From the NCBI GenBank assembly GCA_017507805.1, contig JAFWAC010000015.1:1-64000 (forward strand): a DNA stretch of 64,000 nt, read 5' to 3'. The notes under the pieces were generated by a model. It did no database searches and was not told where the DNA came from. It worked only from the letters and a program-made list of their open reading frames with translations. Numbering within the stretch: the first letter of the stretch is position 1; each line of letters opens with the position of its first letter. Made by a program: the position numbers and the translations under genes. This document shows positions 857 to 17,029 of this stretch, one piece after another. Source of the DNA: Clostridia bacterium (GTDB lineage: Bacteria > Bacillota > Clostridia > Oscillospirales > Acutalibacteraceae).

Positions 857-1062
857 TTACCAACCTACCCTGTTTCGCTATTTATAATAATAGTTTTTTT
901 ACATTAAAAATGATTGATTTTCAAAACCAACCATTTTTCATAATTCAAAAAACAGTTGAATTAACTTTATCCAAAATCATTCTAAAATATAACCGAATAA
1001 TATTTCGCCAACAAAATGTAAATTACTTTTTTATTGAACCATGATAATTGGTCGGTTGGTAA
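857..1062. repeat. Intergenic block A bounded by inverted TTACCAACC / GGTTGGTAA
   Basis: TTACCAACC at 857-865 and its reverse complement at 1054-1062 enclose about 200 bp of AT-rich DNA. The same layout recurs at 13410-13713 and 15974-16122. A further half-motif AACCAACC lies at 925-932. No open reading frame is seen inside. Confidence 0.55.
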
Positions 1063-1092
1063 ATGTTATCTTCAGTCAAAAAAGTTTTTCGA

Positions 1093-1140
1093 GTTATAAC
1101 CGCAAAACTTTTAAAAAATAGTAAGAGTTGCGGTTATAAC
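1093..1140. repeat. 13-bp perfect inverted repeat before the first element operon
   Basis: Arms GTTATAACCGCAA (1093-1105) and its complement (1128-1140) are separated by 22 bp. No T tract follows, so it does not look like a terminator. An operator, or a transfer or replication origin, are the likely alternatives. Confidence 0.5.
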
Positions 1141-1187
1141 CATAAAAAAGTCAGGTAAATAAAAAACAAAAAATTCGTAAAAAGCAC

Positions 1188-1216
1188 TTGGCTTTAGAGG
1201 TAAAATATGGTATAAT
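1188..1216 (+). promoter_or_regulatory. Promoter of the left element operon
   Basis: TTGGCT and a consensus TATAAT are spaced by 17 nt. The transcript would begin near 1223 and meet a hairpin terminator at 1269-1320 before reaching the first gene at 1464. Confidence 0.65.
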
Positions 1217-1222
1217 TAAGAC

Positions 1223-1320
1223 ACAAACTTAATAGTGCTTATCACATATAACATATTTAAATTTTAGGACTTACATATCATACTTTCTTGACGGTAGAGT
1301 ATCGATATGTAAGTTTTTTT
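1223..1320 (+). ncRNA. Candidate short RNA or attenuated leader
   Basis: Transcription from the promoter at 1188-1216 would run about 100 nt to a strong hairpin. Its arms ACTTACATATC (1269-1279) and GATATGTAAGT (1304-1314) have an extra ATACT/AGTAT inner stem, and seven T residues follow. No start codon with a ribosome site is seen inside. It is either a free small RNA or an attenuator for the genes from 1464 on. Confidence 0.5.
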
Positions 1321-1384
1321 CATCTCTTTATTTCTGTTTTCTGGCGACAGAAAAATCTCTCTGTGTGTGTTTGTTTTTAGGATG

Positions 1385-1456
1385 TCCTCCAATACAAAAA
1401 TCCTCCATCAAGACGGCAGTGGGCCAGACATTGCCGCACTACATAATCAAAGGAGG
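1385..1456 (+). promoter_or_regulatory. Structured leader with anti-Shine-Dalgarno blocks
   Basis: Two TCCTCC blocks (1385-1390 and 1401-1406) are complementary to the AAAGGAGG ribosome site of the next gene (1449-1456). Between them and that site lies an 8-bp hairpin, CGGCAGTG / CATTGCCG (1414-1421 and 1429-1436). The leader could mask the ribosome site. The pairing potential is seen; regulation is inferred. Confidence 0.45.
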
Positions 1457-1463
1457 TTAAAAA

Positions 1464-1658
1464 ATGTTAAAAATTTTAATTCAGAAGTTTATCGATGATA
1501 AACCGCAGTTTAATCGTTCCCCATATCAATTGAAAGAAGCGATTGAAATGGAATTGCCGAAAAATTTTGAGTGCATTGTTATACACAGGTTGTCTTCAAA
1601 TACCATCAATGTCTATGGTATTTCTAAAGAATATGAAACCGAGGTGATAGTTTTATGA
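1464..1658 (+). CDS. Hypothetical 64-residue protein
   Basis: Unrecognised small protein beginning MLKILIQKFIDDKPQF. It has mixed charge and no signal peptide or membrane segment. A near-perfect AAAGGAGG site 7 nt upstream supports the start. Its stop overlaps the next start in an ATGA, so the two are probably translated together. It opens the plus-strand run that includes the serine recombinase, and may be an accessory or regulatory protein of the element, but nothing in the sequence shows a function. Confidence 0.65.
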   Translation: MLKILIQKFIDDKPQFNRSPYQLKEAIEMELPKNFECIVIHRLSSNTINVYGISKEYETEVIVL

Positions 1659-1972
1659 CTTCTAAATCTTTTCTTGAGCAACTGTACTATGGGAATATTT
1701 CGCCAGTAGAAAGAAGCCTAAATCCAAAAAGTAAAACTTGCAAAATTATGAAGGCTGTGAGTGATGAGATTGAAAAGTTCAATTCAAAACTTTCAGAAGA
1801 TATGCAAAAAGAACTCGACAGACTTTTATCGCTAAAAACAACTGAATCTTGTCAGATGGAGTTAGATGGATTTATCTATGGTTGTCGTTTCATTTTTAGA
1901 CTGTTAATTGCCTGTATGGGCGATGAAAACAACGATTTTAAAATTGAAGAAATTCTAAATTTTGGAGGATAG
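1655..1972 (+). CDS. Hypothetical 105-residue protein
   Basis: Unrecognised, mostly alpha-helical, soluble protein with three cysteines in the C-terminal part (ESCQ, YGCRF, IACM). It overlaps the preceding gene by 4 nt and is followed 3 nt later by the serine recombinase, with a GGAGG between. This is a typical compact element operon. Short helical proteins of this kind occur beside recombinases in many Firmicute elements, but the family is not identified here. Confidence 0.65.
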   Translation: MTSKSFLEQLYYGNISPVERSLNPKSKTCKIMKAVSDEIEKFNSKLSEDMQKELDRLLSLKTTESCQMELDGFIYGCRFIFRLLIACMGDENNDFKIEEILNFGG

Positions 1973-1975
1973 TGT

Positions 1976-2560
1976 ATGAAGTACGGTTATATAAGAGTTT
2001 CTAGCAAAAGTCAAGAACAGAATACTTCATTACAGTCACAAAGGGAGGCAGTTAAAACTGCAGGTGCTGAAATTATTGTAGAAGAAATATATACAGGCGG
2101 TACAGTAAAAGACAGACCTGAATTTGTAAAACTCATTTCCTTGTTAAAGGAAGGAGATGAACTTATTGTTGTAAAACTTGACAGGTTTGCAAGAACCGTA
2201 TCCGAGGGTTCAATTCTTGCAAAGCAATTATACGATAGCGGTATCACCTTAAATATTTTAAATATGGGTAAAATCGAAAATAGCGGAATAGGTGCATTGT
2301 TGTTAAATGTAATGCTGTGTTTTGCACAGTATGAAAAAGATATGATAAATGAACGATGCAGAGAAGGTCGAATTATTGCAAGGCAAAATCCAAAATATCG
2401 TGACGGGCGACCAAAGAAATTTCATCGAGAACAAATTAACCTTGCTTTGTCATTGCTTGATGAAGGTAAGAGTTATAGGACTGTTTCAGAAATGACTGGC
2501 ATATCAAAATCAACGATGATTAGAGCAAAAAAGAAGATTACTTCTGACACCGAATTATGA
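1976..2560 (+). CDS. Serine recombinase of the resolvase/invertase family
   Basis: A protein of 194 residues, the usual size for a small resolvase or invertase. It begins MKYGYIRVSSKSQEQ, with the catalytic serine in the RVSS segment (residues 8-10) as in the family. The LDRFART segment near residue 70 and the E helix around residue 110 follow. The C-terminal part (about 145-190) forms a helix-turn-helix ending GISKSTMIRAKKK that would bind the recombination site. The start has a GGAGG 8 nt upstream. It may resolve replication multimers of the element or invert DNA. Integration into lysS is better assigned to the tyrosine integrase. No clear res site was found. Confidence 0.9.
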   Translation: MKYGYIRVSSKSQEQNTSLQSQREAVKTAGAEIIVEEIYTGGTVKDRPEFVKLISLLKEGDELIVVKLDRFARTVSEGSILAKQLYDSGITLNILNMGKIENSGIGALLLNVMLCFAQYEKDMINERCREGRIIARQNPKYRDGRPKKFHREQINLALSLLDEGKSYRTVSEMTGISKSTMIRAKKKITSDTEL

Positions 2561-2638
2561 CACCTCGCAAACCCAGTATTTACGGGCTTTTAAAATCGGT
2601 GTCAAAACTTAAAATATTTGAAATGGTTAGGATGCTAT

Positions 2639-3214
2639 ATGAAAAATGTAAAAATTATATTTAGTCTTGTTTTAATTATTGCATTATCATTTACTATCGT
2701 TTTTGCTTTTACAAACACCTACAAACAAAATAGGTCTGGTGGATATAGTTCGGTCTGTACCCTAACCGAGCAGGATAAAGAGTGGATAATAGAAAACTTT
2801 TCACAATATAACACTGTTGAAGATTTAATTGTCGGTATTAATGATTATATCTGCAAGAATTATAGATATGTAGACAAAAACTATATCCAGCACTTTGATT
2901 TTGCAGAAACGGTAAAAAGCAAAAGTGGTTTGTGTTTTGATTTTGCTTCTATGCAAAAATGTATAATAACCGTCATTTCCGAATATAACGGATGGGATAC
3001 TGTAAAAGTGTATGTAGCAGATGTGGAAACACGAACAGATGCACATAGTTACAATTTTATTTGTGTTGGTGATAAAAAATATTTCTCGGACCCGACCACT
3101 AACTTGACCCGTTATAAAAAAGGTAAGAAAGTTGTTTACTATGAGGATATTGGCGATTTAAGTTTCGAAGAATATGCGAATTCTTATAACGAGGAAATTT
3201 TTAATTATCATTGA
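2639..3214 (+). CDS. Transglutaminase-like protein with signal peptide or membrane anchor
   Basis: An in-frame ATG at 2618 exists, but 2639 has an AGGA 6 nt upstream and gives a clean signal sequence, so 2639 is preferred (191 residues). After the hydrophobic N-terminus (about residues 4-24) the body has a transglutaminase-like layout: cysteine in GLCFDFA, histidine in DAHSYNF and aspartate in YFSDPT. That is the Cys-His-Asp triad order of the superfamily. It probably acts outside the membrane as a protease-like or cross-linking enzyme. It is encoded 15 nt before a small membrane protein, suggesting a pair. Its role in the element is unknown. Confidence 0.75.
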   Translation: MKNVKIIFSLVLIIALSFTIVFAFTNTYKQNRSGGYSSVCTLTEQDKEWIIENFSQYNTVEDLIVGINDYICKNYRYVDKNYIQHFDFAETVKSKSGLCFDFASMQKCIITVISEYNGWDTVKVYVADVETRTDAHSYNFICVGDKKYFSDPTTNLTRYKKGKKVVYYEDIGDLSFEEYANSYNEEIFNYH

Positions 3215-3228
3215 AGGAAGGGGTATAA

Positions 3229-3570
3229 ATGAGTTACTTTTTTATTGTTGTAGCAATGACAAATTTGATATTGCAGGGGCAATCTCGCAACATAGTATTT
3301 TTTTATGTTTTTGTAGTTTGTATTGTAAATGGATTTCTGCTGTTGTTTATGGAAACAAAGACAGGAAAAATTGCCTCTTTGTCTTCGATACTATTGTATA
3401 TGATTTTGTCTGCGATATCGTTGTATTACCATTTCTTGTACGGTTGTGTGATAAATGATTATATTATAATTATGACAGAAGCAGTTATACTTTCAATGCT
3501 GACCGCAATTTCAATCTTACCCATCAAGAATTCCCGACAGAATAAATCTGTCGGGATTATTTTTTCTTGA
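3229..3570 (+). CDS. Small multi-pass membrane protein, function unknown
   Basis: A 113-residue, strongly hydrophobic protein with about four predicted membrane helices separated by short polar loops such as METKTGK. A GGAAGG upstream supports the start. The last 13 codons run through the hairpin terminator at 3532-3566, so the C-terminus is encoded by terminator sequence. It directly follows the exported transglutaminase-like protein and may be its membrane partner. A shifted frame (3174-3458) is also open but lacks a ribosome site. Confidence 0.6.
   Translation: MSYFFIVVAMTNLILQGQSRNIVFFYVFVVCIVNGFLLLFMETKTGKIASLSSILLYMILSAISLYYHFLYGCVINDYIIIMTEAVILSMLTAISILPIKNSRQNKSVGIIFS
3532..3566 (+). 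terminator. Rho-independent terminator
   Basis: A 9-bp perfect stem TCCCGACAG / CTGTCGGGA with a 7-nt loop, followed by TTATTTTTTC. It ends the left element operon and lies inside the end of the membrane protein gene. Confidence 0.85.
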
Positions 3571-3635
3571 AAAATAAATGAAAATCTAGAATCCTTTAGT
3601 ATCTTAATTTTTAATATACTGGAGGAATTTTTATT

Positions 3636-4019
3636 ATGACAAAAACACAAATTAAAAGAGGAAAAATATTTTTCGCAGATATCCCTAAAACGGTTGGGTC
3701 AACTTATTTCGGAAAAAGGCCTGTACTCATACTGTCGAATAATCTCAATAATAAATTTGCAAAAACGGTAACCGCAATCCCATGCACATCTCGCACTGGA
3801 ATTAGCCGAGGTGGAAAAAAGAAAGACTTGCCGACTCATGTATACATACCTCAAGAGCAAGAAGGCACAGGCTTCGCAAGGGACACTATCGTTATGTGCG
3901 AGAATATTTGCAATTATTCTGTAGATATTTTAGAAGAGTGTATTGGAAAAATCGATGAAAATTCAGAGTTGATGCGAGAGATTGAAAATGCAGTCCGAAT
4001 ACAAATTGGTATTGGATAA
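3636..4019 (+). CDS. MazF/PemK-family toxin, no adjacent antitoxin
   Basis: A 127-residue protein with the MazF/PemK fold signature: an N-terminal strand RGKIFFADI, a conserved RPVLILSNN (about residues 28-36), an AIPCTSR strand and a long variable loop. The family consists mainly of ribosome-independent mRNA endoribonucleases paired with an upstream MazE-like antitoxin. Here the upstream DNA is a terminator, and no small antitoxin gene lies on either side, so it is solitary. It has a GGAGG site 9 nt upstream and its own terminator. It may have been recruited as a regulator or depend on an unlinked antitoxin. Confidence 0.8.
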   Translation: MTKTQIKRGKIFFADIPKTVGSTYFGKRPVLILSNNLNNKFAKTVTAIPCTSRTGISRGGKKKDLPTHVYIPQEQEGTGFARDTIVMCENICNYSVDILEECIGKIDENSELMREIENAVRIQIGIG

Positions 4020-4020
4020 C

Positions 4021-4056
4021 AAAAAGCACGGTTGCCCTCCGTGCTTTTTGTTTTTT
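4021..4056. terminator. Bidirectional terminator between the MazF-like gene and hsdR
   Basis: An 11-bp perfect stem AAAAAGCACGG (arms 4021-4031 and 4039-4049) with T-rich sequence on both sides. It lies between the convergent ends of the MazF-like gene and hsdR and can serve both. Confidence 0.85.
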
Positions 4057-4065
4057 GTATTAAGA

Positions 4066-7000
4066 TTATGCTGCCAGAGCATTGGCATTGATAGATTTAA
4101 TAATCTTCATAATATCCATCCAGACTACCGTATCGGTAAAGACATCATCAAGAGTGCCTTTGTTGGTGAACGGTGCTTCCTGCATGACTGCAAAATTCTT
4201 CATCATACCGTTCTGCACGATGTAGTTGATGATTTGGTTTACGAAGTAAATCTGTCTATCATCGAGGTTTACATCGTTAAGATACTTTGAAAATGCTTCT
4301 TTCGCAGAATTTATATCAAGACCAACAATCTCTCGAACGAGTTCGCCAAGAGGCTTGTCCTTGTATTCCTGCTGATAATCTTCCTTTGTACCGAGTTCCG
4401 ACCACAGTATTTTTTCCAGTTCCGCAATATCTGCAGTAGTCAAAGGTTTATTGGTGTGCAGTTTGGCAATAACTTCATTGTCCATATGTTGACGGATATA
4501 GTGATTAACCTTTGCTCTGTAATTCGGTAAATCGCCACCATTGGGTTCGTATGGGTTCTGCACCATATTTATTATATCATCAGTAAAGTCGGTGGTATAG
4601 GGTTGCCATTCGATGACAGGAATATATTTAATAATATCTCTGATTTCCTTACGGATAAACTCAAAGTCGTTAATATCTGCCCGTTCAACATAATCGGTGT
4701 GTAAGATTTTATCAAGCAGTTCGCTCTTTTCTTTTACTGCGGGAATTGTAGAAACCGTTGCAACAGCACGAACCTTACCCATCAAATCTTTTATGCCTTT
4801 TTGATATATATTACCAGCAATATAACCCAGTTCAATAGCATACATAAGTGCATCAAATCGAACTGCATTGATTTCGTCTTCATAAGGCAATACCAATGGT
4901 GCGATTTCGTCCTGCAACTGTGAAATATCTAACGGGGTCAATGCTTCGTAATTCTTCTTATCAGAGTACAGGTCAACAAACTTCAAATGCTGTTTAACAG
5001 CAAAGTTATCACGGTTCAACTGATGCACCTTTTCTACAAGTTCATCAATAAGAGAGGTGCGGAAGGCAATCAGTTCCTCGGTTTGATATACCAAGTCCTG
5101 CAACTTATAAACCAAGTTCACTTTAAGGTTGAAAATTCTCTGTTGTACCGAAATGGTAGTAGGTACATTTTTACCGTTTTTATGTGTGCGGAAGAACTCA
5201 AAGTTTCCGCAGAAGTCAAATATGTAGAAGAGTTTTTTATCCTCTCCATCGAGCAGAGCAGGACATAAACGGGTGCCACGACCAATCATCTGCCAGAACT
5301 TCGCCTTGCTCATAACCTTCTTGAAGAAAACAAGGTTCACAACCTCTGGAACGTCGATACCAGTATCCATCATATCAACGGAAACAACGATTTGAGGCAT
5401 TTTTTGGGGGTCAGAGAATTCGTCAATAAGACTTTGAGAGTAATTGGTATAGTTATCAATTACACGGCAGAAATTGGGCGAGAAATTTGGATATTCCTTG
5501 CCGAAAATTTCGTAGATTTTCTCTGCATGGCGATGGTTCTTTGCAAAGATAATGGTTTTACCTATCTTGTTGCCGTAGTCGATGCGGATACCTTTTTCCA
5601 TCAGGATGCCGAGCACCTTGCGGATAGTATCCTCATTGAAAATCTTCTCGTTCAGAGCAGAACTATCTATTCGCTCTGGCATAGAACCGTCTTCGGTAGC
5701 AAATAGGTTTTCATATTCTTCTTTGTCTTCGTCAGACAGGTCATCATAAACAATGCCGTCTTCCATCAGTTTCAGAGTGGTCTCTACCGTCTCATAAGGA
5801 ACAAGATACTTGTCTTCAACCGCTTGGTCAAGTTCGTATCCGTAGGTGGGAACACCGCTTTCTAATTCGAAGATTTTATATGTATCCTTGTCAACTTCGT
5901 CTCTCGGTGTTGCCGTCAGACCAACAAGGTGGGCATCAAAATATGTAAAGATGTCTTTGTACTTGTTGTAGATACTGCGATGTGCCTCGTCGCAGATGAT
6001 AAGGTCGAAGTGACCAACGGTATAAAGTTTACCGCCTTTCTCGTCCTTTACATCGTCAATGCAGTGTATCATTGTCTGATATGTAGAGAATACACCACGA
6101 GCATTATAGTTTTCCTTGTCTTCACAAAGGTTTACTACCGACAGGTTCGGTAATAGGTTCACAAAGGCTCTCTTTGCCTGTGTAACGAGCGAATTACGGT
6201 CGGCAAGGAAAAGTACATTCTTAACCCATCCGTGTCTTAAAAGGACATCTACGATGGATATAACGGTTCTGGTCTTGCCAGAGCCAGTTGCCATTACGAG
6301 AAGAGCTTTACGGCGGTTTTCTTCATCAAAAGCACGGCATACTGCCTTGATTGCTTCTTTCTGGTAGTAACGGCCAGAAATATTGTCATCAACACGAACA
6401 TTTGTAAGGTGGGTTCTCATCGTGAGCTTATTAAACTCTTTCTCCAAGTCTCTCTTGGAATAGAAACCACTAACCTTGTGTTCGGGGTAATATCTATCGT
6501 TCCAAATACGGGTATCAAAACCGTTAGAAAGGAATATAATCGGTCTCCTGCCGAATTTCTGCTCTAACAAGTCGGCATACAATTTTGCCTGCTGTCTGCC
6601 GATGGCAACATCTTTACAGGTTCTCTTTGCTTCAATAACTGCAAGGGGTTTGCCATCATCACCGAACAAAACATAATCGGCATATCCCACTTCAGACTTA
6701 TTAGGCATACCAGCAAGTTCATATTCGTTGTACCAGTCTTTGCCTTCCACCCAACCTGCATCGATAAGCATAGTGTCGATATAAACCTTACGGGTCTTAA
6801 ATTCCGAAATATCAAGTGGTTTCGGAACATAATTGGGTTGTTGTTCTTCTCGTTTACTTGTGAGTTGTGCTTTGAGTGCTTTGTTTTCTTCGATAAGTTT
6901 TTCTATATCAACCGTAATTTCGGGAATAGGTGCAACAGGGGTAGGCTCTGCCTTTAATAACTCGGCATTAAAGGATATTTCTTCGTATTCATCGGCATAG

Positions 7001-7371
7001 CAATATGCCACAAAATCAAGGAAATAGAACAGGTTTTCAAGTGCCAATTCTGCCTGTTCGGGTTTAATATTTCGTGTCGAGTGTGCAGAAGTATTACCTA
7101 CAAGGCGAATAAAATCAATTCGGCGGAAAATATCGTTACCGACAATATCCTTAAATTCCACCGTATTGATAAGTGTAACGAAATTGTCCTGATACGGCAT
7201 AATAAGAGAACCGTCAACAGAATACATCCACTTGACAGCAAATTCCGCCGCTTTGCGAACATTAAAGACACAAGAAGCGGTATCTATACCGTACAATTTT
7301 TCGGCAGTTATTGCAATATCGGCAAAACTACTGAATTTTTCATCCTTTTTTAGAAAATCAAAGTTGGTCAT
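4066..7371 (-). CDS. hsdR: Type I restriction enzyme, R (endonuclease/translocase) subunit
   Basis: The 1101-residue protein is of full length for HsdR. It begins with a DUF4145-like domain (about 1-130) and a short coiled coil near 153-175. The restriction nuclease core follows, with D232 and the EAK motif at 247-249. The helicase motor has Walker A ATGSGKT (361-367) and DEAH (461-464), plus later motifs such as GLTATP and QMIGRGTR. It translocates and cuts DNA unmethylated at the HsdS target, working with HsdM and HsdS. It is the last gene of the operon and overlaps the preceding gene by 4 nt (ATGA). No disruption is seen. Confidence 0.97.
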   Translation of the reverse strand: MTNFDFLKKDEKFSSFADIAITAEKLYGIDTASCVFNVRKAAEFAVKWMYSVDGSLIMPYQDNFVTLINTVEFKDIVGNDIFRRIDFIRLVGNTSAHSTRNIKPEQAELALENLFYFLDFVAYCYADEYEEISFNAELLKAEPTPVAPIPEITVDIEKLIEENKALKAQLTSKREEQQPNYVPKPLDISEFKTRKVYIDTMLIDAGWVEGKDWYNEYELAGMPNKSEVGYADYVLFGDDGKPLAVIEAKRTCKDVAIGRQQAKLYADLLEQKFGRRPIIFLSNGFDTRIWNDRYYPEHKVSGFYSKRDLEKEFNKLTMRTHLTNVRVDDNISGRYYQKEAIKAVCRAFDEENRRKALLVMATGSGKTRTVISIVDVLLRHGWVKNVLFLADRNSLVTQAKRAFVNLLPNLSVVNLCEDKENYNARGVFSTYQTMIHCIDDVKDEKGGKLYTVGHFDLIICDEAHRSIYNKYKDIFTYFDAHLVGLTATPRDEVDKDTYKIFELESGVPTYGYELDQAVEDKYLVPYETVETTLKLMEDGIVYDDLSDEDKEEYENLFATEDGSMPERIDSSALNEKIFNEDTIRKVLGILMEKGIRIDYGNKIGKTIIFAKNHRHAEKIYEIFGKEYPNFSPNFCRVIDNYTNYSQSLIDEFSDPQKMPQIVVSVDMMDTGIDVPEVVNLVFFKKVMSKAKFWQMIGRGTRLCPALLDGEDKKLFYIFDFCGNFEFFRTHKNGKNVPTTISVQQRIFNLKVNLVYKLQDLVYQTEELIAFRTSLIDELVEKVHQLNRDNFAVKQHLKFVDLYSDKKNYEALTPLDISQLQDEIAPLVLPYEDEINAVRFDALMYAIELGYIAGNIYQKGIKDLMGKVRAVATVSTIPAVKEKSELLDKILHTDYVERADINDFEFIRKEIRDIIKYIPVIEWQPYTTDFTDDIINMVQNPYEPNGGDLPNYRAKVNHYIRQHMDNEVIAKLHTNKPLTTADIAELEKILWSELGTKEDYQQEYKDKPLGELVREIVGLDINSAKEAFSKYLNDVNLDDRQIYFVNQIINYIVQNGMMKNFAVMQEAPFTNKGTLDDVFTDTVVWMDIMKIIKSINANALAA

Positions 7372-8030
7372 GTTTCGTCACATTCCTTATTAATTGAATC
7401 GTATTGTTTCAAAATATCATCACAATAATCGCTCAAATCAAATTTATTTATCGTTAAGGATTCAACATTTAATCTATATAGTACGAATATACAATCATAA
7501 AATACTTCTTTGAATGTTAGGTTATATTTGTATTTTAGATTAGTAATATATTTCAAAATACTTTCAGCCGTAGAAAAATCAGCCATATCACCTGAGTATT
7601 TAAATGTCTGAACATACAAATATAAATTATCAGAGTAATTATATAATCCCGAATTCAATTTTTTCATTTTTTTATCAATGGCTTGGAAAATAATATTAAT
7701 GTTAAACGGCTCAAAATCTTTTTTATAAGCAGAAATAGTATTAGTATCTTTATCTATAATAACATCGTAAAAATGAGAACGAAAGTTAGACAAGCCTTTT
7801 GATGGTACTTCTGCAATTGCTTTTCCATCCAAAAATTTTTTATAATAAGAATTCAATTGCTCTTCTTTTTGGTCTGTTGCAAAAACGACCTCAATTCCAA
7901 GTTGAGAAGATGTTTTTATTAAATCTGGTTTGTCAGATAATTCAATATCAGAAAACTCTTCTGGCAGCACGGTTTTAAGTGTTATTTGAGCAAATAATTC
8001 TCTCCAATAATTGGGTCGTTGTTCGTTCAT
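7368..8030 (-). CDS. Unknown 220-residue protein embedded in the hsd operon
   Basis: Soluble protein of mixed alpha/beta composition with no membrane segment. Residues around 30-50 read SDKPDL followed about ten residues later by GIEVV. This acidic, beta-strand pattern recalls PD-(D/E)XK-like nuclease cores, though the usual lysine is absent, so nuclease activity is only a weak suggestion. The C-terminal half is rich in Tyr, Asn and Lys. It is translationally coupled to hsdR by an ATGA overlap and preceded by a GAGGTTAG ribosome site. Its position suggests a role tied to restriction, such as an accessory effector or regulator. Confidence 0.7.
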   Translation of the reverse strand: MNEQRPNYWRELFAQITLKTVLPEEFSDIELSDKPDLIKTSSQLGIEVVFATDQKEEQLNSYYKKFLDGKAIAEVPSKGLSNFRSHFYDVIIDKDTNTISAYKKDFEPFNINIIFQAIDKKMKKLNSGLYNYSDNLYLYVQTFKYSGDMADFSTAESILKYITNLKYKYNLTFKEVFYDCIFVLYRLNVESLTINKFDLSDYCDDILKQYDSINKECDET

Positions 8031-8047
8031 GTTCTAACCTCAACAAC

Positions 8048-8275
8048 TTACCAGTTCATTTCTTTTGCCATTTGTGCAAGACAAGCATAAAATGCCGTTT
8101 GTTGATGTTGACCGTCTAATTTTTTTACCGCTTCGCAGAGGTCATGCATTGCTTTTACAGCATTTATAACCTCTTTGTTTTGTTCATAATTGTATTTTTC
8201 TATTTCTGCTCTAATAGAATTATAGTACTGTTGATTAACATACTGTGGATTAAACATCTGATTATTGAAATTCAT
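8048..8275 (-). CDS. Small conserved-looking protein, 75 residues
   Basis: The open frame extends to 8317, but the ATG at 8275 has a GGAG 9-10 nt upstream and is preferred. The protein begins MNFNNQMFNPQYVNQQYYNS, rich in Asn, Gln and Tyr, and continues with an amphipathic helix containing VKAMHDLCEAVKKLDGQHQQ. I have seen this general pattern in hypothetical proteins of clostridial phages and elements, but no function is known to me. It lies between two unknown genes of the hsd operon. Confidence 0.6.
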   Translation of the reverse strand: MNFNNQMFNPQYVNQQYYNSIRAEIEKYNYEQNKEVINAVKAMHDLCEAVKKLDGQHQQTAFYACLAQMAKEMNW

Positions 8276-8324
8276 TATTCTATTCTCCTTTGCTAAAATA
8301 TCATTGCATATCGTCAAAGAACTA

Positions 8325-8921: not shown

Positions 8922-8930
8922 TGTTTCACC

Positions 8931-10115
8931 TCACCCAAAATATTGTTGCATAAGAGTTTTCTTTAATTCTTCCAATTCAGTAATGCTCTGTTGAACTGCC
9001 AATTTTGATTTGTCGGTCTGTTCGACGAAGGCTGCGAATTGGTCTTGTAACTCTATTGGCGGAATAAGAACCTCTATATCTTTGAGCAAGAAAATCTTAA
9101 ACTCAGCAAACGTCGAGCCCGAACCAAGTTTGGGATACTCTACAAGCGTTTTTTCTCTCATAAACTGCTCAAGATACTTACAGTTAAAGAGTTTCCGATT
9201 TGGTGATATACAAAGTACACGTCCATCTTTATAGTAAAACGGCTCATCAGTATCAACCATCCACACTTGTCCCTTGTTACAAATAGATGGCATAAGTAAA
9301 TCGCCCAATTTCGGTTTTGTTTCGTCACACGCTAACCTATCGTAGTGTTCTTTGGTAATGCGATATAGATTTTCGGGTTTAAGGCCATTTGCTAACTCAC
9401 CAATCTCAGTTCCTCGGTAGAAAGGAACACCTTCTTCAACAAACTCAGTTGTAAATACTCTATGGCTTGACCCAACCTCTGCAACCTCGCCTAATTTACG
9501 AGTTTCAAACTTGTAGTCACCTGTTTTGATATCTCCAAACAGTTCGATAAATCGGGATTTGACGAGTTCATCCAACTGTTCTAACTGAGCAATTCGTGTG
9601 CTTAATAAAGAATCAACAGAAGACAGTACTTCTACTACCGTGAGTTGTTCTTCTTCGGTAAAGAACGGAATTTCAAAGTCGTTGATGTTTTGCAAAGATA
9701 AGTTTAATTGTGCTACTCCTTGCTTTTGCTTCTCTGCTTGTTCAATTATGGCATCAGATTGCAAAGCATACAGTAAAAAGCGATAGTCAATAACTCCTTG
9801 GGGTATTCTGATAATAGCAAGTGCTTGATTCGTATTTGCAGGTAAACAGTCCTTGGTTACAATAGCAGTTCTTCCGATAGCACCTGCAATAGAAAACAAT
9901 ATATCGTTTTCTTGGAGTTGTGACCTTTTTAGTTTTGTGTTACACTCATCGCTAATATGAGCAAATTTATCTGGAATAAATGTTCCATCTTCTCGAATGC
10001 TTTCAATTTTTACGAAATTCACACCTGTACCTGTAAAAGTATAACCAACTGATGTAGGAGTTGTTCCTTTGGTGATTAAAGTGGCAATATCGCCAAGTCT
10101 CATTTTATTTCTCAT
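8931..10115 (-). CDS. hsdS: Type I restriction enzyme, S (specificity) subunit
   Basis: A 394-residue protein with the classic two-half layout: a target recognition domain starting with RLGDIATLITKG, a conserved helix around residues 160-195 (EEEQLTVVEVLSS, then ARIAQLEQLDELVKSRF), a second recognition domain (KLGEVAEVG) and a C-terminal helix (ELEELKKTLMQQYF). It sets the bipartite DNA sequence methylated and restricted by the complex. The start has GGGAGG 6 nt upstream. It lies 14 nt after hsdM. The target sequence cannot be deduced here. Confidence 0.96.
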   Translation of the reverse strand: MRNKMRLGDIATLITKGTTPTSVGYTFTGTGVNFVKIESIREDGTFIPDKFAHISDECNTKLKRSQLQENDILFSIAGAIGRTAIVTKDCLPANTNQALAIIRIPQGVIDYRFLLYALQSDAIIEQAEKQKQGVAQLNLSLQNINDFEIPFFTEEEQLTVVEVLSSVDSLLSTRIAQLEQLDELVKSRFIELFGDIKTGDYKFETRKLGEVAEVGSSHRVFTTEFVEEGVPFYRGTEIGELANGLKPENLYRITKEHYDRLACDETKPKLGDLLMPSICNKGQVWMVDTDEPFYYKDGRVLCISPNRKLFNCKYLEQFMREKTLVEYPKLGSGSTFAEFKIFLLKDIEVLIPPIELQDQFAAFVEQTDKSKLAVQQSITELEELKKTLMQQYFG

Positions 10116-10129
10116 AACACACCTCCCAG

Positions 10130-11602
10130 TTATACACCTAACAGGGAGTTGAGTTTTTCCAACTCATCAGAGAACTGCATATGCAGTTCGTGCAAAGAGG
10201 TCATGATTTCAGTTGTAGAACGATACTGGACTGCTTCATAAACTGTCTTCTTGTACTTATTGATAGACAGGTCATAATCGTTGTCGATGATTTCCTGTTT
10301 GGGAACAAAGAACGATTTATCCGTTCTTTCTCTATTGGTTTCACCATCAAGGTTGTGGAAACGGGAAATAATATCGGGAATATCATTGTCCGAAACAGCA
10401 GTTCTTTTATCATCAAGACTGTAACCGTCAGCCTGCATATCATAGAACCAGACATTATCTGTTCCGCCGTGTCCAGTCTTGGTAAAGATAAGAATACCAG
10501 TTGATACACCAGCATAGGGTTTGAATACACCACTGGGCATAGAGATAACTGCTTCAAGACGGTTGTTTTCAATTATTTCCTTACGAATTGCTTTATGTGC
10601 GGTAGAAGAACCAAACAGAACACCGTCAGGAACGATACAAGCACAGCGACCACCGATTTTAAGCATACGAAGGAATAGAGCAAGGAAAAGAAGTTCGGTC
10701 TTCTTAGTCTTGCAAACCTTTAATATATCGGTAGATACGGTGTCGCTATCGAGCGAACCCTTAAAGGGTGGGTTGGCAAGAATAATGGAATATCTGCCTG
10801 TATCGGTGTTCTGGTCCGAAAGACTGTCACGATAGTCAATATTAGGATTATCAACACCGTGTGTCATCATATTCATAGCACCAACACGAAGCATAGTTCT
10901 GTCCATATCGTAACCAAAGAACATATGGTTATTGTAGTGGTCTTTTCGCTCGTTGTTATAGAAAATCTCGTTATTATACTTTTCTTTTAAGTATTCACCT
11001 GCAGCAACAAGGAAGCCAGAAGTACCACAAGCAGGGTCGCAGATGGTATCATCGGGTTTAGGGTCGAGCATTTCAACCATCATACGAATGATATGACGGG
11101 GTGTACGGAACTGACCGTTTACACCAGCAGTAGAAAGTTTGGAAAGCAGACTTTCATAAACATCGCCTTTGGTATCGTTTTCAATATCCTTTGCCATATC
11201 AATATACAAAGTATCAAGTGCATCTACTATTTTAGAGAGTAACTGCGGGGTTGGTATCTTAAAAATAGCATCGGACATATATCTCGAATAAGTGCTTTCT
11301 TTATTGCCGTGCAAATTCTTAATAAATGGGAATATTTCACTCTGCATAAGTTCATACATTTTCTCGGCGGGCAGGTCACGAAATACCGACCATTTATATT
11401 GGTCGTGTCCCTCGAACATTGAAGTATAAGGCAATTCTAACATCATACTGCTCTTTGCCTTTTTAGCATCGGTTTCGTCCAAATCGTGAATGAACATTAA
11501 ATATGTCATTTGTTCTACAACATCAAGTGGGTTAGTGATACCGCCTGTCCAGAACATTTCCCATATCATATCAATTTTATTTTTAAGTTCGCCTGTAAGC
11601 AT
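10130..11602 (-). CDS. hsdM: Type I restriction-modification system, M (adenine methyltransferase) subunit
   Basis: A 490-residue N6-adenine methyltransferase. The N-terminal HsdM helical domain (about 1-140) is followed by FRTPRHIIRMM, the SAM-binding motif DPACGTSG (189-196) and the catalytic NPPF (277-280). With HsdS it methylates host DNA, and with HsdR it forms the restriction complex. A GGAGG site is present. It is the first gene of the hsd operon and lies 74 nt downstream of fic on the same strand, so read-through from fic is possible. Confidence 0.97.
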   Translation of the reverse strand: MLTGELKNKIDMIWEMFWTGGITNPLDVVEQMTYLMFIHDLDETDAKKAKSSMMLELPYTSMFEGHDQYKWSVFRDLPAEKMYELMQSEIFPFIKNLHGNKESTYSRYMSDAIFKIPTPQLLSKIVDALDTLYIDMAKDIENDTKGDVYESLLSKLSTAGVNGQFRTPRHIIRMMVEMLDPKPDDTICDPACGTSGFLVAAGEYLKEKYNNEIFYNNERKDHYNNHMFFGYDMDRTMLRVGAMNMMTHGVDNPNIDYRDSLSDQNTDTGRYSIILANPPFKGSLDSDTVSTDILKVCKTKKTELLFLALFLRMLKIGGRCACIVPDGVLFGSSTAHKAIRKEIIENNRLEAVISMPSGVFKPYAGVSTGILIFTKTGHGGTDNVWFYDMQADGYSLDDKRTAVSDNDIPDIISRFHNLDGETNRERTDKSFFVPKQEIIDNDYDLSINKYKKTVYEAVQYRSTTEIMTSLHELHMQFSDELEKLNSLLGV

Positions 11603-11676
11603 ATAATAACCTCCATCATATCATCGGTAATATAATTCTAATAAGAGAAGTGTCCGTTATGTGGGACTTTAGAATT

Positions 11677-12576
11677 TTAATTATCCAACACCGCCAGATA
11701 CTCGCCAAGTCGCTCGTTCACATATTCGGCGATTAAATCTATCATTTTGTTAGGATTGCCGTCTTTGTAATAGGCATCAAAAGCATCGTAATATCGTTTA
11801 CGGTCTGTAAATTTCACATTGATAGGCGGATAACCGCATCTGATAAGTTCAAGGTTCATAAGTAGGCGGCCAGTTCTGCCGTTGCCGTCAATAAAGGGAT
11901 GGATACCCTCAAACTCTAAATGGAAACGAGCAATTCGCTCAATATCGTGAATTACTCCCTTACGCTCATTATCGTTGTTAATGAGTTCTGCCATTTTAGG
12001 TTCAATAAGATACGGTTGCACTGGCTCGGTATAGGCACCCATTATTTTCACGGGGATTCTTCGATACACACCTTTATCGTCTGGACGGTTCATAAGAACA
12101 AGTGAGTGAATATTCTTAATCTCATTCTCTGACAAGGGGGTATCTTTCTTTGCAATATCCTGAACATAAAGGAAAGCATCACGGTGTCCAACCGCTTCTA
12201 AATGGTCTTTAAGAGGTTTTTTATCAATAGTCATACCTTCAAGTGCCAATGCGGTTTCTTTAAGGGTAAGAGTATTTCCCTCAATAGCATTGGAATTATA
12301 GGTGAACTCTATCATAAACTCTTCACGAAGTCGCTCAACCTCACCTGCGGTAAGCGGTCTTTGTGCTTCAAGTTTCTCTTTTTTATAGTCAACCTCAAAA
12401 ATTATATTATTCTTGCTACGACGGCCATCGAGGGGTTTTATGGCATTTTCGGGAACCATATATAAATTCCCTTTACGGATAACGCCTTCAACCTTTCCTT
12501 CAGCACATAAAATACGGGCTCTGCGAGCAGAAATACCCCATTTTTGCGCCGCTTCGGATACCTTTATATAGTTCAC
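11677..12576 (-). CDS. Fic domain protein with N-terminal DNA-binding domain and built-in inhibitory motif
   Basis: A 299-residue protein read from a GTG start with AGGAGG 7 nt upstream. Residues 1-50 resemble a helix-turn-helix (SEAAQKWGISARRARILC followed by a wing). Residues 95-100, SNAIEG, fit the (S/T)xxxE(G/N) inhibitory helix of class II Fic proteins. The catalytic loop HPFIDGNGRTGR is complete at 226-237. Fic enzymes mostly transfer AMP to target proteins, and the inhibitory glutamate keeps them off. Its promoter contains a long inverted repeat, suggesting self-regulation. Fic genes are known neighbours of type I restriction operons, where a guarding or toxin role has been suggested. 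Confidence 0.93.
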   Translation of the reverse strand: MNYIKVSEAAQKWGISARRARILCAEGKVEGVIRKGNLYMVPENAIKPLDGRRSKNNIIFEVDYKKEKLEAQRPLTAGEVERLREEFMIEFTYNSNAIEGNTLTLKETALALEGMTIDKKPLKDHLEAVGHRDAFLYVQDIAKKDTPLSENEIKNIHSLVLMNRPDDKGVYRRIPVKIMGAYTEPVQPYLIEPKMAELINNDNERKGVIHDIERIARFHLEFEGIHPFIDGNGRTGRLLMNLELIRCGYPPINVKFTDRKRYYDAFDAYYKDGNPNKMIDLIAEYVNERLGEYLAVLDN

Positions 12577-12615
12577 TCGGATACCTCCTAAACTAATTAC
12601 AATTTCACAAAATAC

Positions 12616-12682
12616 ATTATATCACAAATTAGGAATAATAACAACAATTATTTTTAAAACATAATAACATTATTCCTAATTT
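12616..12682 (-). promoter_or_regulatory. fic promoter with a 14-bp inverted-repeat operator
   Basis: On the minus strand TTGTTA (12644-12639) and TATAAT (12621-12616) have a 17-nt spacer. A perfect 14-bp inverted repeat AAATTAGGAATAAT has one arm inside this spacer (12626-12639) and the other upstream (12669-12682). Their centres are 43 bp apart, about four helical turns. The arrangement suits a looping or cooperative repressor, and the N-terminal helix-turn-helix of Fic is the obvious candidate. Confidence 0.65.
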
Positions 12683-12772
12683 AATTTTATCAAGGAATAA
12701 ATTATACTTGATTAATTGTTAAAAAATTATTATATTATAGTTGCCATCTTTCTTACTTCGTTAACATATAAA

Positions 12773-12821
12773 GAAACTCGCCAGTTGACTTCTTCGTTGT
12801 CTTCTGGCGAGTTTCATTTTT
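12773..12821. terminator. Bidirectional hairpin terminator
   Basis: A 12-bp perfect stem GAAACTCGCCAG (12773-12784 and 12804-12815) with a 19-nt loop and a plus-strand T run. On the minus strand it directly follows the 171-residue gene, whose transcript it probably ends. Confidence 0.7.
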
Positions 12822-13336
12822 TAATGATATTTAATGTTTTGAGAGCAACCAAATAAAAACATTGCATAAAGCACGGTCATATTATCTTTAAGTTTACCTT
12901 CTATACCGAGCAAAATTTTCTTTTGATGGGTAAGAGTGAGGCAGTCATCAACTGCCAAACTTTGAGCAATTCTAAATGTTTCCTTTGCCTTTACTGCATC
13001 CGAATTTAGCAACAAACCAACCAACACACCATCAATACTTAATACCGTATCACTTAAAATAGAAGTAATATTAATATAATTGTTTTCTTCATCATTCGAC
13101 ATTTCATTTACTATCCTGCAAAAACAACCTGCTGCGAAAGCAAGTTCAAGCATCTTTTTAGGTTTTTTGAACTCTTGCTTGGTGGCATTATAGGTTTTAA
13201 CTAAAAGTTCGGAACAGTAATCCATCGCTATCGATTTATAAAAATCATCGTGGATAGCGGGTTGGTCGGTTGTGTCAGTTAAAACTGAACCTACACACTC
13301 AACGATTTCATTAAATAATTCTTTATTATAATTCAT
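12821..13336 (-). CDS. Hypothetical 171-residue helical protein
   Basis: Unrecognised, almost wholly alpha-helical, with several cysteines and a hydrophobic segment around SIDGVLVGLLLNSDAV that is too polar at its edges for a confident membrane helix. An AAAGGAGG site lies 6 nt before the ATG. It is a single-gene unit with its own terminator, between fic and the block with tandem repeats. Nothing ties it to restriction. Confidence 0.6.
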   Translation of the reverse strand: MNYNKELFNEIVECVGSVLTDTTDQPAIHDDFYKSIAMDYCSELLVKTYNATKQEFKKPKKMLELAFAAGCFCRIVNEMSNDEENNYINITSILSDTVLSIDGVLVGLLLNSDAVKAKETFRIAQSLAVDDCLTLTHQKKILLGIEGKLKDNMTVLYAMFLFGCSQNIKYH

Positions 13337-13409
13337 TATAAAACCTCCTTTATTTGGATGTACATGTTAGCGCATTTCAAGGGTAATTACAAGGCCCAAA
13401 ATAATAAAT

Positions 13410-13713
13410 TTACCAACCTTTTTCACATAACCCTTAAAAATAGTCAGGGGTTTAAAACAATATCCAAAATTTTATACCGTCAATCGATTGTCGCTGGGTG
13501 GCGGTTGGTGGCATACGATTATCAGTTAATTAAGTGTATATAATGTAGTGTTTTGTATGGTATAATACCCATTTGATTTAAGTAAAGGGATAAGGAGGCA
13601 GACGATTTTAAAATCGATTGCTTTTAAATTGTATTTTTTTAATTGCCATATTTAGGTAATAAAAACAATACAATTTTCTTTTTTATATATTGTGTTATAG
13701 GGTTGGTTGGTAA
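13410..13713. repeat. Intergenic block B bounded by inverted TTACCAACC / GGTTGGTAA
   Basis: TTACCAACC (13410-13418) and GGTTGGTAA (13705-13713) enclose about 300 bp without a credible gene. Inside are an extended -10 promoter TGGTATAAT ending at 13566, an AAGGAGG near 13592, a perfect palindrome CGATTTTAAAATCG (13603-13616) and a terminator-like stem at 13626-13676. The tandem 12-bp repeats begin 2 nt beyond the right boundary. Confidence 0.55.
13568..13686 (+). ncRNA. Candidate small RNA inside block B
   Basis: The extended -10 element TGGTATAAT (13558-13566) would start a transcript near 13573. It ends at the stem AAATTGTATT / AATACAATTT (13626-13635 and 13667-13676), which is followed by a T-rich tail. 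The roughly 115-nt RNA has a ribosome-site-like AAGGAGG but no ATG after it. There is no recognised family and no good -35, so this is a hypothesis. Confidence 0.3.
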
Positions 13714-13714
13714 A

Positions 13715-13798
13715 GTAACAACCATATTTTTTACCATATTAACAACTATCTTAATAACTATATTAACGACTATTTTAACAACCATATTTATAACCATA
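13715..13798 (+). repeat. Seven tandem 12-bp repeats, consensus TTAACAACYATA
   Basis: Seven contiguous 12-bp units: GTAACAACCATA, TTTTTTACCATA, TTAACAACTATC, TTAATAACTATA, TTAACGACTATT, TTAACAACCATA and TTTATAACCATA. An eighth, degenerate unit leads into the terminator. The plus frame would encode repeated LTTI, but it has no ribosome site or plausible start. Such arrays (iterons) are typical binding sites for replication initiators or partition proteins, which fits a replicating element. Confidence 0.75.
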
Positions 13799-13799
13799 A

Positions 13800-13835
13800 A
13801 ATAACCGTGATAGCAACTGTACTATCACGGTTATT
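13800..13835. terminator. Hairpin terminator of the 110-residue gene
   Basis: A 14-bp perfect stem AATAACCGTGATAG (13800-13813 and 13822-13835) with an 8-nt loop, starting 2 nt after the minus-strand stop codon. A TTTTAT tail follows on the minus strand. Confidence 0.75.
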
Positions 13836-13837
13836 CT

Positions 13838-14170
13838 TTAAATGAGGTTTGCCGAAAGTAGCATAGAATAAATTTTTTCTAAAACATCGTTTCGATAGAC
13901 ATAGTACGATGATGGGGGTTCGGTCAGTTTCATCGGGATGTCTTTAAAATTAAATAACATCACTTTGTTTTTGAGAATAAGTTCGCAATACTTTTTACCA
14001 AAGTCCGCAAGTGGCATTTCGGTTTCATCATATATAAAAGCAAAGTCGTCGTATGCTTTTTTAACCACTTTTCTTATATCTTCATTTTTTAAGCAAAGTG
14101 CAAAAAGTTGTCTTTCAAAATCGGTTCGTTGAGAACTTGTCAAAATCTCTTTTTTTCGGAAACGGGACAT
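13838..14170 (-). CDS. Hypothetical 110-residue protein
   Basis: Unrecognised, charged, soluble protein beginning MSRFRKKEILTSSQRTDFER with a helical N-terminal half. An AGAGGTGAT site lies 6-7 nt before the ATG, and a strong terminator follows. It reads away from the replication initiator gene, with the duplicated leader (copy 1) between them. That position suits a replication or copy-number accessory gene, but this is inference from context only. Confidence 0.55.
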   Translation of the reverse strand: MSRFRKKEILTSSQRTDFERQLFALCLKNEDIRKVVKKAYDDFAFIYDETEMPLADFGKKYCELILKNKVMLFNFKDIPMKLTEPPSSYYVYRNDVLEKIYSMLLSANLI

Positions 14171-14262
14171 AAAATTATCACCTCTAAAAATTTGATTACA
14201 AATAAATTATTGATAATATTTTTTTGAATTTCAAGTAATTCTATAAAAATCTTGGAATTTTT

Positions 14263-14634
14263 TTGACAAAATAAAAAATTTTTTCTATTATTTTTAAAAT
14301 ACAAAACAACAGTTTTTCTTGCAAAAAAAGGCGTTTTTGAACTGTGAGAGTTTAAAACACCGATTTTTTGCAAAAATAACTTTCAAAAAACAAAAACCAG
14401 AGGCAATTGGTGCTATTGACAAATTATAATTTTTAAATTAATCTTAAAAATAATAAGACAAAATCTATTTATAAATTTACGAAAAGACAGTTTTAAGCAT
14501 ATAACTCAACAGAAAAATTATGGGTTTATATGATAAAGAATTCACCAAAACAGAAAAAAGATAACCGTTACTCATAGCAGTGTTTTAGTTGTATGAGTGA
14601 CGGTTATTTTCGTTTGAAGGGTGGTGAAAAATAA
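14263..14634 (+). promoter_or_regulatory. Leader of the replication gene (copy 1 of a duplicated leader)
   Basis: A promoter with TTGACA (14263-14268), a 17-nt spacer and TATTAT (14286-14291) opens the region. A 51-nt hairpin follows (14321-14371, stem GCAAAAAA/TTTTTTGC, loop containing TGTGAGAG), then a second TTGACA (14416-14421) and a terminator-like hairpin (14561-14614) just before the GGGTGGTG ribosome site. The same elements, in the same order, occur at 16274-16626. This layout suggests control of replication by transcription attenuation or an antisense RNA. Confidence 0.55.
14561..14614 (+). terminator. Attenuator-like terminator before the replication gene
   Basis: A 16-bp stem with one G-T pair (14561-14576 and 14592-14607), read ATAACCGTTACTCATA on the 5' side, followed by TTTTCGTTT. 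It ends only 28 nt before the start codon, where a terminator would act as an on/off control for the gene. Confidence 0.7.
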
Positions 14635-15783
14635 ATGACAAAATATGTTGAAACAGATTTGACGGTAGATACGGTCACACTGTGGTGGCCATATTATGAA
14701 AGAAATTTCGACAAAAAAGGTTGGAAATACAAAAAGCGAAAAAGAGAAGACAGACCTGATTCGTTCACGAAAAATATTGATAATATTCATCTAATTTACT
14801 TACCAAATTGGAATGAGTTCATGGTTTCATTTTCTGCATCAAAACTTGCGAACGGATGCAATGCTTTTCCATATACAAACAATCAATATGAACTTGTTAA
14901 AGAAAAAATAGAAGAGGTAATTCAATCCACATTCGGACACCCATTAAATATTGAGAACTCTTACATAAGCAGATTTGATGTCAATAAAAATATAGAATTC
15001 CCCAGCATTAAAGATGCCAAGGAATTCATTGGGTGGGCACAAAACCACCCCATTATCGGAAAGTACATAAAAACACCATACGGAGATAACGGCGATTACA
15101 GAAGATATAAAAGCGGTTTGGTCTTGAAAATTTATCTAAAAAACGAAGACCCCGCTTTGCCAGAAGAAATTAGGAAAATTTTACCTCCTACTGTTCGTAT
15201 TGAAGCGGAATGTAGAAAAGATGCTCGTAGAAAGATGTTGGGAACGGATGCAACTGGTGAAATACTTAAATATCCTGCAATTTGGCAACATTTTTATAAT
15301 GAAACTTTAGAAAAATTCAAATTAGGTGGCACTATATTGAACTTCAAAGACTATAAAAATGCGGTACAATCAATATTGCAGTTTGAATATCCAAGCAATC
15401 GTTACAGCACCATTACGAAAAAGGTGAATACATTAATCAAAACCTCTCTCGGTCAAAATATTAAAAACCATAAAGAGCAGGTTGAACTGATAAACAAGGT
15501 TTCAAACTATAACATCTTACCATATGCTTTTTCAAAAGCAGAACTAATACCCGATAATACTCTTTTGGCACATTCTGTAATGTCAGTAGAAGAACAGAAT
15601 TTTCAAGAGTATAACGATTTCGCTTTAGACGAGAATTTAAAGATATTTAGACAATGCCTCAACAAGAGAAAGAAGGAAGCAAAATGTACAAACATTTATC
15701 CAAAGCATACCATAGTTATTTATCCGTCAAACATTATTATTGGAAAATATTTTTGGGTAGTTCCGATAGACGACAGTTCATAG
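14635..15783 (+). CDS. Replication initiator-like protein (filamentous phage G2P / phage X type)
   Basis: A 382-residue protein. Segments such as FMVSFSASKLANGCNAF (about residues 62-78), ISRFDVNKN (about 105-113) and YRRYKSGLVLKIYLKNED follow the pattern of rolling-circle replication proteins of the inovirus G2P/Phage_X type also found in plasmids and mobilizable elements. Such proteins nick the element's origin, and some act in mobilization. The start has a GGGTGGTG site. The protein tail overlaps another open frame (15684-15989), so the exact end of the functional protein is a little uncertain. Catalytic tyrosines were not assigned. Confidence 0.65.
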   Translation: MTKYVETDLTVDTVTLWWPYYERNFDKKGWKYKKRKREDRPDSFTKNIDNIHLIYLPNWNEFMVSFSASKLANGCNAFPYTNNQYELVKEKIEEVIQSTFGHPLNIENSYISRFDVNKNIEFPSIKDAKEFIGWAQNHPIIGKYIKTPYGDNGDYRRYKSGLVLKIYLKNEDPALPEEIRKILPPTVRIEAECRKDARRKMLGTDATGEILKYPAIWQHFYNETLEKFKLGGTILNFKDYKNAVQSILQFEYPSNRYSTITKKVNTLIKTSLGQNIKNHKEQVELINKVSNYNILPYAFSKAELIPDNTLLAHSVMSVEEQNFQEYNDFALDENLKIFRQCLNKRKKEAKCTNIYPKHTIVIYPSNIIIGKYFWVVPIDDSS

Positions 15784-15973
15784 GTCTAATAACATATAAA
15801 ATTTATTTCATAACTTTACACTTAAAGAGTAGTGTAAAGTGTATGAAAAGTCAAGAAAACAAGACTACTTTGATAACTTTTTTAAGAGTAATCGTAAGGT
15901 GGTCTGCTTTGCTATGTTTAAATTTAGTTAAATTAACTCTCGTAATGGGGTTATTTGCCCCTTCGGGGCATAC
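15784..15973. other. Noncoding region after the replication gene
   Basis: An open plus frame (ATG at 15684 with a GAAGGAAG site, to 15989, 101 residues) starts inside the replication gene and crosses this stretch. It has no recognisable domain and is not called as a gene. A small hairpin CCCC TTC GGGG lies at about 15958-15968. Confidence 0.35.
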
Positions 15974-16122
15974 TTACCAACCAACCTAAATCACCATTCA
16001 ATCAAGTAAGTATTTTAAACATTAAAATCGCCTTGGGTTTATTACTGATTTTTAAAGGATTATGAATTGGAAAATGGTTAAAATTACTTTTTAAAACATT
16101 ATGCAAATGGGTAGGTTGGTAA
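15974..16122. repeat. Intergenic block C bounded by inverted TTACCAACC / GGTTGGTAA
   Basis: TTACCAACC (15974-15982, followed by a further AACC) and GGTTGGTAA (16114-16122) enclose about 130 bp of AT-rich sequence without a gene. A related GGTTGGTTAA lies at 16730-16739, near the start of the excisionase gene. Confidence 0.55.
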
Positions 16123-17007: not shown

Positions 17008-17029
17008 TTTAGAGAGGAATGTTAAGATT

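Follow-up and report, generated by a model that had tools for sequence, protein, structure and literature searches.

Inverted pairs of a short directional word around three noncoding blocks of an integrated Clostridia element: candidate sites for an element-encoded DNA-binding protein

The DNA analyzed here is a stretch of 64,000 bases (the window) from a Clostridia bacterium of the family Acutalibacteraceae (contig JAFWAC010000015.1). A mobile element is integrated in it between a copy of the 3′ end of lysS and lysS proper. In this element the 9-mer TTACCAACC occurs six times, as three outward inverted pairs (857+/1054-, 13410+/13705-, and 15974+/16114-) that bound the three blocks of Table 1. 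We tentatively propose that an element-encoded DNA-binding protein recognizes the fuller form of this word, TTACCAACCNACC (GGTNGGTTGGTAA when read outward), as a directional site, and that the blocks would be control regions bracketed by two such sites. This is the reading we favour, and we hold it to be possible rather than probable.

An initial annotation, made from the letters of the window, had described six copies that always form inverted pairs; its coordinates and orientations are exact, as are its block lengths of about 206, 304, and 149 bp. It had put the chance expectation at well under one copy in 18 kb; in the whole window we count 8 copies against 0.46 expected. The one other copy it reported, near 63688, is present, but a second off-element copy at 50174 had been overlooked; both are unpaired. 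It had also suggested counting the word in the full genome. In the 2,340,196 bases (36 contigs) searched there are 29 copies, against 15 of a reversed-letter control word, and for each of the 23 off-element copies the nearest other copy is more than 1 kb away. Lone 9-mers are therefore commonplace in this genome, and pairs occur in the element only.

How unusual are three pairs of one word? In the main noncoding intervals of the element (3328 bases) we counted outward pairs 100-400 bp apart for all 9-mers with at least four G/C. TTACCAACC forms three such pairs and every other qualifying word at most one. Among 2000 first-order Markov samples none exceeded one pair for any word (1649 had no pair and 351 at most one). 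The G/C filter was introduced after an initial unfiltered test, in which A/T-run words took 39 of 300 samples to at least three pairs.

The six ends, from L1 to R3, read TTACCAACCTACC, TTACCAACCGACC, TTACCAACCTTTT, TTACCAACCAACC, TTACCAACCAACC, and TTACCAACCTACC, and TTACCAACCNACC fits five of them. It has five copies in the genome, all of them element ends, while a control word has none; 9 of the 69 other genomes of the genus contain one copy and 60 contain none. The initial annotation regarded the block interiors as dissimilar. This holds in part, but blocks 2 and 3 agree by 74% over their final 42 bp, and by eye the block 1 end is similar too.

Table 1. Features of the element and its surroundings (positions in the window; L and R, left and right end of a block)
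Feature	Positions	Strand	Remark
Block 1	857-1062		206 bp; TTACCAACC pair
Block 2	13410-13713		304 bp; TTACCAACC pair
Block 3	15974-16122		149 bp; TTACCAACC pair
Site L1, TTACCAACCTACC	857-869	+	G-rich strand faces left
Site R1, TTACCAACCGACC	1050-1062	-	
Site L2, TTACCAACC	13410-13418	+	17 bp upstream of putative -35 box of 171-aa gene
Site R2, TTACCAACCAACC	13701-13713	-	
Site L3, TTACCAACCAACC	15974-15986	+	
Site R3, TTACCAACCTACC	16110-16122	-	
Weaker extra site, TAACCAACCCACC	16726-16738	-	about 60 bp ahead of xis start codon
Leftward promoter-like TTGATT-17-TATAAT	815-843	-	13 bp beyond L1; hexamers and spacer length same in G054
Left-operon promoter-like TTGGCT-17-TATAAT	1188-1216	+	same in G054
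Left-operon leader hairpin and T-run	1267-1320	+	19 consensus pairs over six elements, 8 with double change
Putative promoter of 171-aa gene, TTGTAA-17-TAACAT	13364-13392	-	counterparts read in three relatives
Block 2 interior stretch common to relatives (GGAGGCAGACGATTTTAAAATCG and AT-rich hairpin)	13591-13685	+	
Iteron-like repeats (AACAACCATATTT and variants)	13716-13800	+	similar words in relatives, by eye
Gene of 382-aa protein	14635-15783	+	
Left attachment-region copy (lysS 3′ end)	528-592	none	aligns with 18869-18923
lysS's own copy of attachment region	18869-18923		aligns with 528-592
GGGTAA repeat cluster	727-777	+	82% like 18802-18852
Serine resolvase/invertase gene	1976-2560		library scan
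Tn916-type excisionase (xis)	16798-17007		library scan of window proteins
Tn916-type integrase (int)	17418-18737		library scan of window proteins

The excess extends to the wider class of words. The pattern TT.CC..CC..CC occurs 7 times in the window element (0.16 expected) and once in the remaining window (1.16 expected). ACC.ACC.ACC likewise has 7 copies in the element (0.1 expected), 7 in the 20 kb around the element of the relative G015 (0.0) and 2 in G033 (0.1), against 1 in the remaining 45 kb of the window (0.1); it is absent from the stretches of G056, G030, G054, L026, and L027. Shorter ACC.ACC words lie at 926-932, 13503-13509, and 16726-16736, within the gene of a 171-amino-acid (171-aa) protein, and elsewhere in coding DNA. 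The chromosome, too, has more plain ACC.ACC than expected (29 vs 11.1), and the window element has an excess of the control CCA.CCA (12 vs 4.5, partly through overlap with the sites), so that only the longer forms of the word are telling. Within the 171-aa gene, two of the short words, at 13016-13022 and 13260-13270, are paired outward, and the same is seen in its homologs in G015 and G033. They encode a TDQ motif and a Val-Gly stretch, so that conservation of the protein may account for the pair.

A second element, in the genome G054, follows the same plan with an altered word. Between its left end and the promoter of its leader, TTACCACCCACCC and an inverted TTTCCGCCCGTCC form a 129-bp outward block in the position of block 1, and these are the sole TT.CC..CC..CC words in 36.5 kb of G054. 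Of 2000 random samples of that size, 2 contained an outward pair of this pattern at a distance of 80-400 bp; the pattern had been selected after the pair was seen. The genome G026 has the same right word as G054, and its left word ends in ACCT. Two inverted copies of one site around a control region, as in paired operators, are present in both the window and G054.

Promoter-like sequences accompany several of these sites. The one facing outward at L1 is equalled by 1.7% of control positions. In G054 its counterpart lies 20 bp from the left site (5.1% of local positions score as well), and TTGGCT-17-TATAAT lies 26 bp from the right site (2.5%). The putative promoter of the 171-aa gene, which adjoins L2, can be read with its 17-base spacer in all four elements compared (window, G015, G033, and G056); by eye, G-rich words stand upstream of its -35 box in G033 (GGTGGGTCA, 15 bp) and in G056 (GGACAGGGGGAAA, 16 bp). 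An outward promoter-like sequence is seen beside both ends in G054 and beside L1, and by conservation beside L2, but none better than chance beside R1, R2, L3, or R3.

Protein binding, activation or repression, looping, and the choice of a candidate regulator are inferred. In blocks 1 and 2 the left site would act from a short way upstream of an outward-facing promoter-like sequence. If each of two divergent promoters has one directional site, the inverted arrangement follows automatically, and with sites 140-300 bp apart one oligomer might bridge both in a loop. Such a protein would co-ordinate the left operon, the region of the 171-aa and 382-aa genes, and the xis-int region. The 171-aa protein, whose own putative promoter adjoins a site, is a candidate regulator and nothing firmer. 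An element-encoded DNA-binding protein was among the options of the initial annotation and appears to fit best, the word being element-specific and directional, with one free position, and having a changed outward pair in another element.

Comparable regulation is known in plasmids. In pCF10 (PrgX) and, on divergent promoters, in pLS20 (RcoLS20), two operators per regulator are brought together in a loop (review PMC6540685). As there, a regulator encoded by the element would have two sites at promoters of a mobile element and a loop between them. Unlike those systems, the window element has pairs at three regions; in its word ACC recurs every four bases, and the word changes between elements.

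Several observations weigh against the reading that we favour. The promoter scores at R1, R2, L3, and R3 are ordinary (18.5-86% of control positions are as good), and the extra site is no exception (41%); averaged over the six window ends, the score is 8.67 against 8.12 (standard deviation 0.85). The score at L2 is itself at chance (41%), and its support is conservation. R1 is 125 bp from the left-operon promoter, with two repeats containing GTTATAACC in between. The block 2 left word of G015 is opposite in orientation and farther off, and the boundary pairs of G033 and G056 look weak. G056 (6 vs 4.8 expected) and G030 (2 vs 2.6) have no excess of ACC.ACC. Second-rank matches to a matrix of the site are non-specific: the coding sequence 10767-10779 scores as high as 16726, and chromosomal positions 50170 and 57973 reach 14.9 and 14.2. 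In the G054 comparison at least two TT.CC..CC..CC words occurred in 19 of 200 samples, and G054 and G026, 96% identical at this place, are close kin and not independent. The letters of block 1 are not alike beyond chance between the window and G054 (65 of 300 samples were as good), so that the two blocks are similar in plan only, which lowers our confidence.

The inverted ends might instead pair as stems that close three structured RNAs or single-stranded DNA hairpins, which we find improbable. It is true that the 9-bp arms pair in predicted folds, with three extra pairs past a mismatch in blocks 1 and 3, and that folding as DNA gives z scores of -2.8 for block 2 and -2.2 for block 3. However, the fold of block 1 is no better than chance (z -1.1), the arms in G054 differ at 4 of 13 positions with no compensation, the interior of block 2 yields no consensus structure over four elements, and the window has no Rfam match at gathering scores. 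The mismatch lies at base 10 of the arms in all three blocks, which favours a protein site over a stem.

The interior of block 2 is common to relatives: the local alignment beats 300 of 300 samples for G015 (13591-13659) and for G056 (13651-13685), and 299 of 300 for G033. The boundary words of these three differ from those of the window. The interior hairpin is stable in the window (z -3.1). Block 2 also contains, by eye, GGAGG-N6-ATT (window 13594-13620, G015, and G033), which could start a short peptide at an ATT codon.

The initial annotation had offered small mobile cassettes as a further option, and had proposed aligning the blocks across relatives to see whether they come and go as units at the motif. 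Inverted ends, variable interiors, and three blocks within one element would fit such cassettes, or non-autonomous insertion elements whose termini are short inverted repeats. The alignment does not bear them out: the interior of block 2 is kept while its boundary words change. By eye no target-site duplication is visible at the block flanks, the 29 genome copies of the 9-mer include no further pair, and none of the 69 other genus genomes has two full sites. We regard cassettes as extremely unlikely. Integron attC sites have cores of the form RYYYAAC/GTTRRRY. The blocks are like attC in their imperfect inverted ends and variable interior, but those cores do not agree with TTACCAACC in the six ends read, and the proteins scanned include no recognisable integron integrase.

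Inverted repeats at the bounds are also a mark of invertible promoters. The small serine recombinase gene of the element, which has homologs in G033, G054, and G015, could supply the enzyme for recombination sites flanking such promoters. The arms, however, share 9-12 bp and have no central dyad, and we do not see at the left ends the 42 bp that blocks 2 and 3 have in common on the right. The recombinases of G015 and G033 are 63-72% identical to that of G054 and to each other, and yet these genomes are without the G054 word. We therefore rate this explanation as very unlikely.

The main rival to our reading is a role in replication or maintenance, in our estimate unlikely; the initial annotation had named replication or packaging signals as its remaining option. 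Block 2 would be the origin of the excised circle, its paired sites would be bound by an accessory protein or by an initiator, for which the 382-aa protein is a possible candidate, and blocks 1 and 3 would be secondary. The block abuts the iteron-like repeats, which lie upstream of the 382-aa gene. Six of the seven homologous 382-aa genes, the window gene included (15781-15796), end in D[ST]S-stop followed inside about 20 bases by ATAACATA, which is a possible cis site; this ending is present in the window, L024, L025, L027, L022, and L023, and is missing from L026. Initiator genes are moreover carried by various integrative and mobilizable elements (review PMC5704250). Against this explanation, the iteron word seems to be kept across relatives that have other boundary words, and L026 and L027 have a 382-aa homolog without an excess of the word class. 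G054 and G026 have the pair, and no 382-aa homolog was found in either genome (G026 is 87% complete). The notion that the sites are themselves iterons of the 382-aa protein was set apart, as the repeats look kept where the boundary word changes.

What the 382-aa protein does can be guessed from its position and residue pattern: it may be a replication initiator or a relaxase. Neither Pfam nor NCBIfam gives a match to it, and PHROG gives only marginal ones; none of five homologs matches a Pfam family of the Rep_trans/MobT kind (PF02486). Comparison of its profile with two proteins found through PF02486, one just above and one below the cut-off, gave a probability of 0.4%, and the only match among solved structures (E value 0.073) is not credible. 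A remote relation to Rep_trans/MobT is possible. Homologs are rare: 5 of 149 relatives have one (the own genome, G030, G033, G056, and G015), as do 1 of 394 genomes in a sample of the order and 1 of 398 in a sample of the family, the own genome counted each time. A search of genome contigs gave four loci, L026 and L027 among them, and none was found in the plasmids, phages, and viral contigs searched. The own genome also encodes another initiator-like protein (G000:C22, about 98982-99509, L130), with PF02486 below cut-off, beside an open reading frame (ORF) that reads like a microvirus replication protein.

Block 3 is placed between the 382-aa gene and xis. The regions upstream of these two genes (14180-14640 and 16123-16620) are strongly alike, with an alignment score of 170 against 50 for the best of 300 samples. 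Both contain promoter-like sequence and a hairpin. G015 (L023) has an outward pair of ACC-repeat words at the corresponding place, ACCCACCTACC (11467-11477) and ACCTACCGACCGACC (11679-11693), between its 382-aa homolog and an ORF that we call xis-like from position alone. Its right word is about 60 bp before that ORF, like the extra site of the window before xis.

To the right of block 1, the left operon begins with a leader RNA (1207-1320), in which the promoter ATGGTATAAT is followed by a hairpin with a T-run; it was aligned with L052, L053, L022, L051, and L023. It too is without a match in Rfam at gathering scores. The promoter and hairpin pattern was found in 5 of 247 genomes (own, G054, G026, G056, and G033), and part of the leader is present in G015.

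The element itself has features of the Tn916 type, namely Int and Xis of that kind and direct repeats at the 3′ end of a gene. Matches to the left flank stop at 592 in four genomes of the genus (G044, G063, G014, and G041); a weaker match in G030 (77% identical) extends to 601. The GGGTAA clusters at both element ends are possible arm sites of the integrase. They are likelier in this role than the boundary sites, which we rejected as arm sites; block 3 is 2.7 kb from the right end. Library scans also identified a DUF6809 protein, a MazF-like protein, and, with scores below curated cut-offs, a Fic-like protein, and some ORFs read to us as type I restriction-modification subunits. No conjugation machinery is apparent in the ORF list of the window, most of which went unscanned. 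With the integrative and mobilizable elements reviewed in PMC5704250, this one shares a tyrosine integrase, a target at the 3′ end of a housekeeping gene, and restriction-modification-like cargo; it differs from them in its 382-aa protein, which has no match among the initiator and relaxase families tested. Between xis and int lies a 156-aa ORF (16967-17437) with two WxCxCDCG...KSCGC repeats, which resembles a PHROG of HNH endonucleases. G054:C13 (L056, about 15000-17700) holds what looks like a truncated element: the left end, DUF6809, recombinase, and a transglutaminase-like gene are followed by chromosomal-looking genes.

A strict paired-word pattern, which fits blocks of about 127-157 bp only, matched no viral contig. 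A loose one matched 38, which were taken as chance on their words, G+C (33 have at least 0.46), and proteins; against the element proteins these contigs gave a single ORF match, a 98-residue stretch like a methyltransferase-type ORF of G015. DUF6809 was discarded as an element marker, being present in 41 of 70 genomes of the genus. None of 50 further stretches (30 loci and 20 more) had an outward CC..CC..CC pair inside 400 bp; the pair of L089 is inward, and that of L117 is outward with 1.7 kb between its words. The leader promoter and hairpin words are absent from all of the 20, and a hairpin-type word was present in 8 of the 30 loci. The leader pattern occurred in three viral contigs, without related proteins apart from one 33-residue chance match. 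Among the titles listed by an open-literature search none concerned TTACCAACC in such elements, and no paper on DUF6809 surfaced.

The boldest form of our proposal, which we think unlikely as a whole, is that a directional (NCCN)3 word of four-base period is read by a new class of element-encoded DNA-binding protein, which may be the 171-aa family. The specificity of this protein would diverge between elements, and paired copies would bracket and bridge control regions, co-ordinating transcription, replication, and excision through loops. If the reading we favour is right, a simple word search would have uncovered regulatory wiring in integrative elements from gut Clostridia, the central proteins of which have no match in the family libraries used. 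The site would be a ready DNA probe with which to fish out the regulator, and a word of four-base period that changes its letters between elements and yet stays paired would represent an unusual recognition code.

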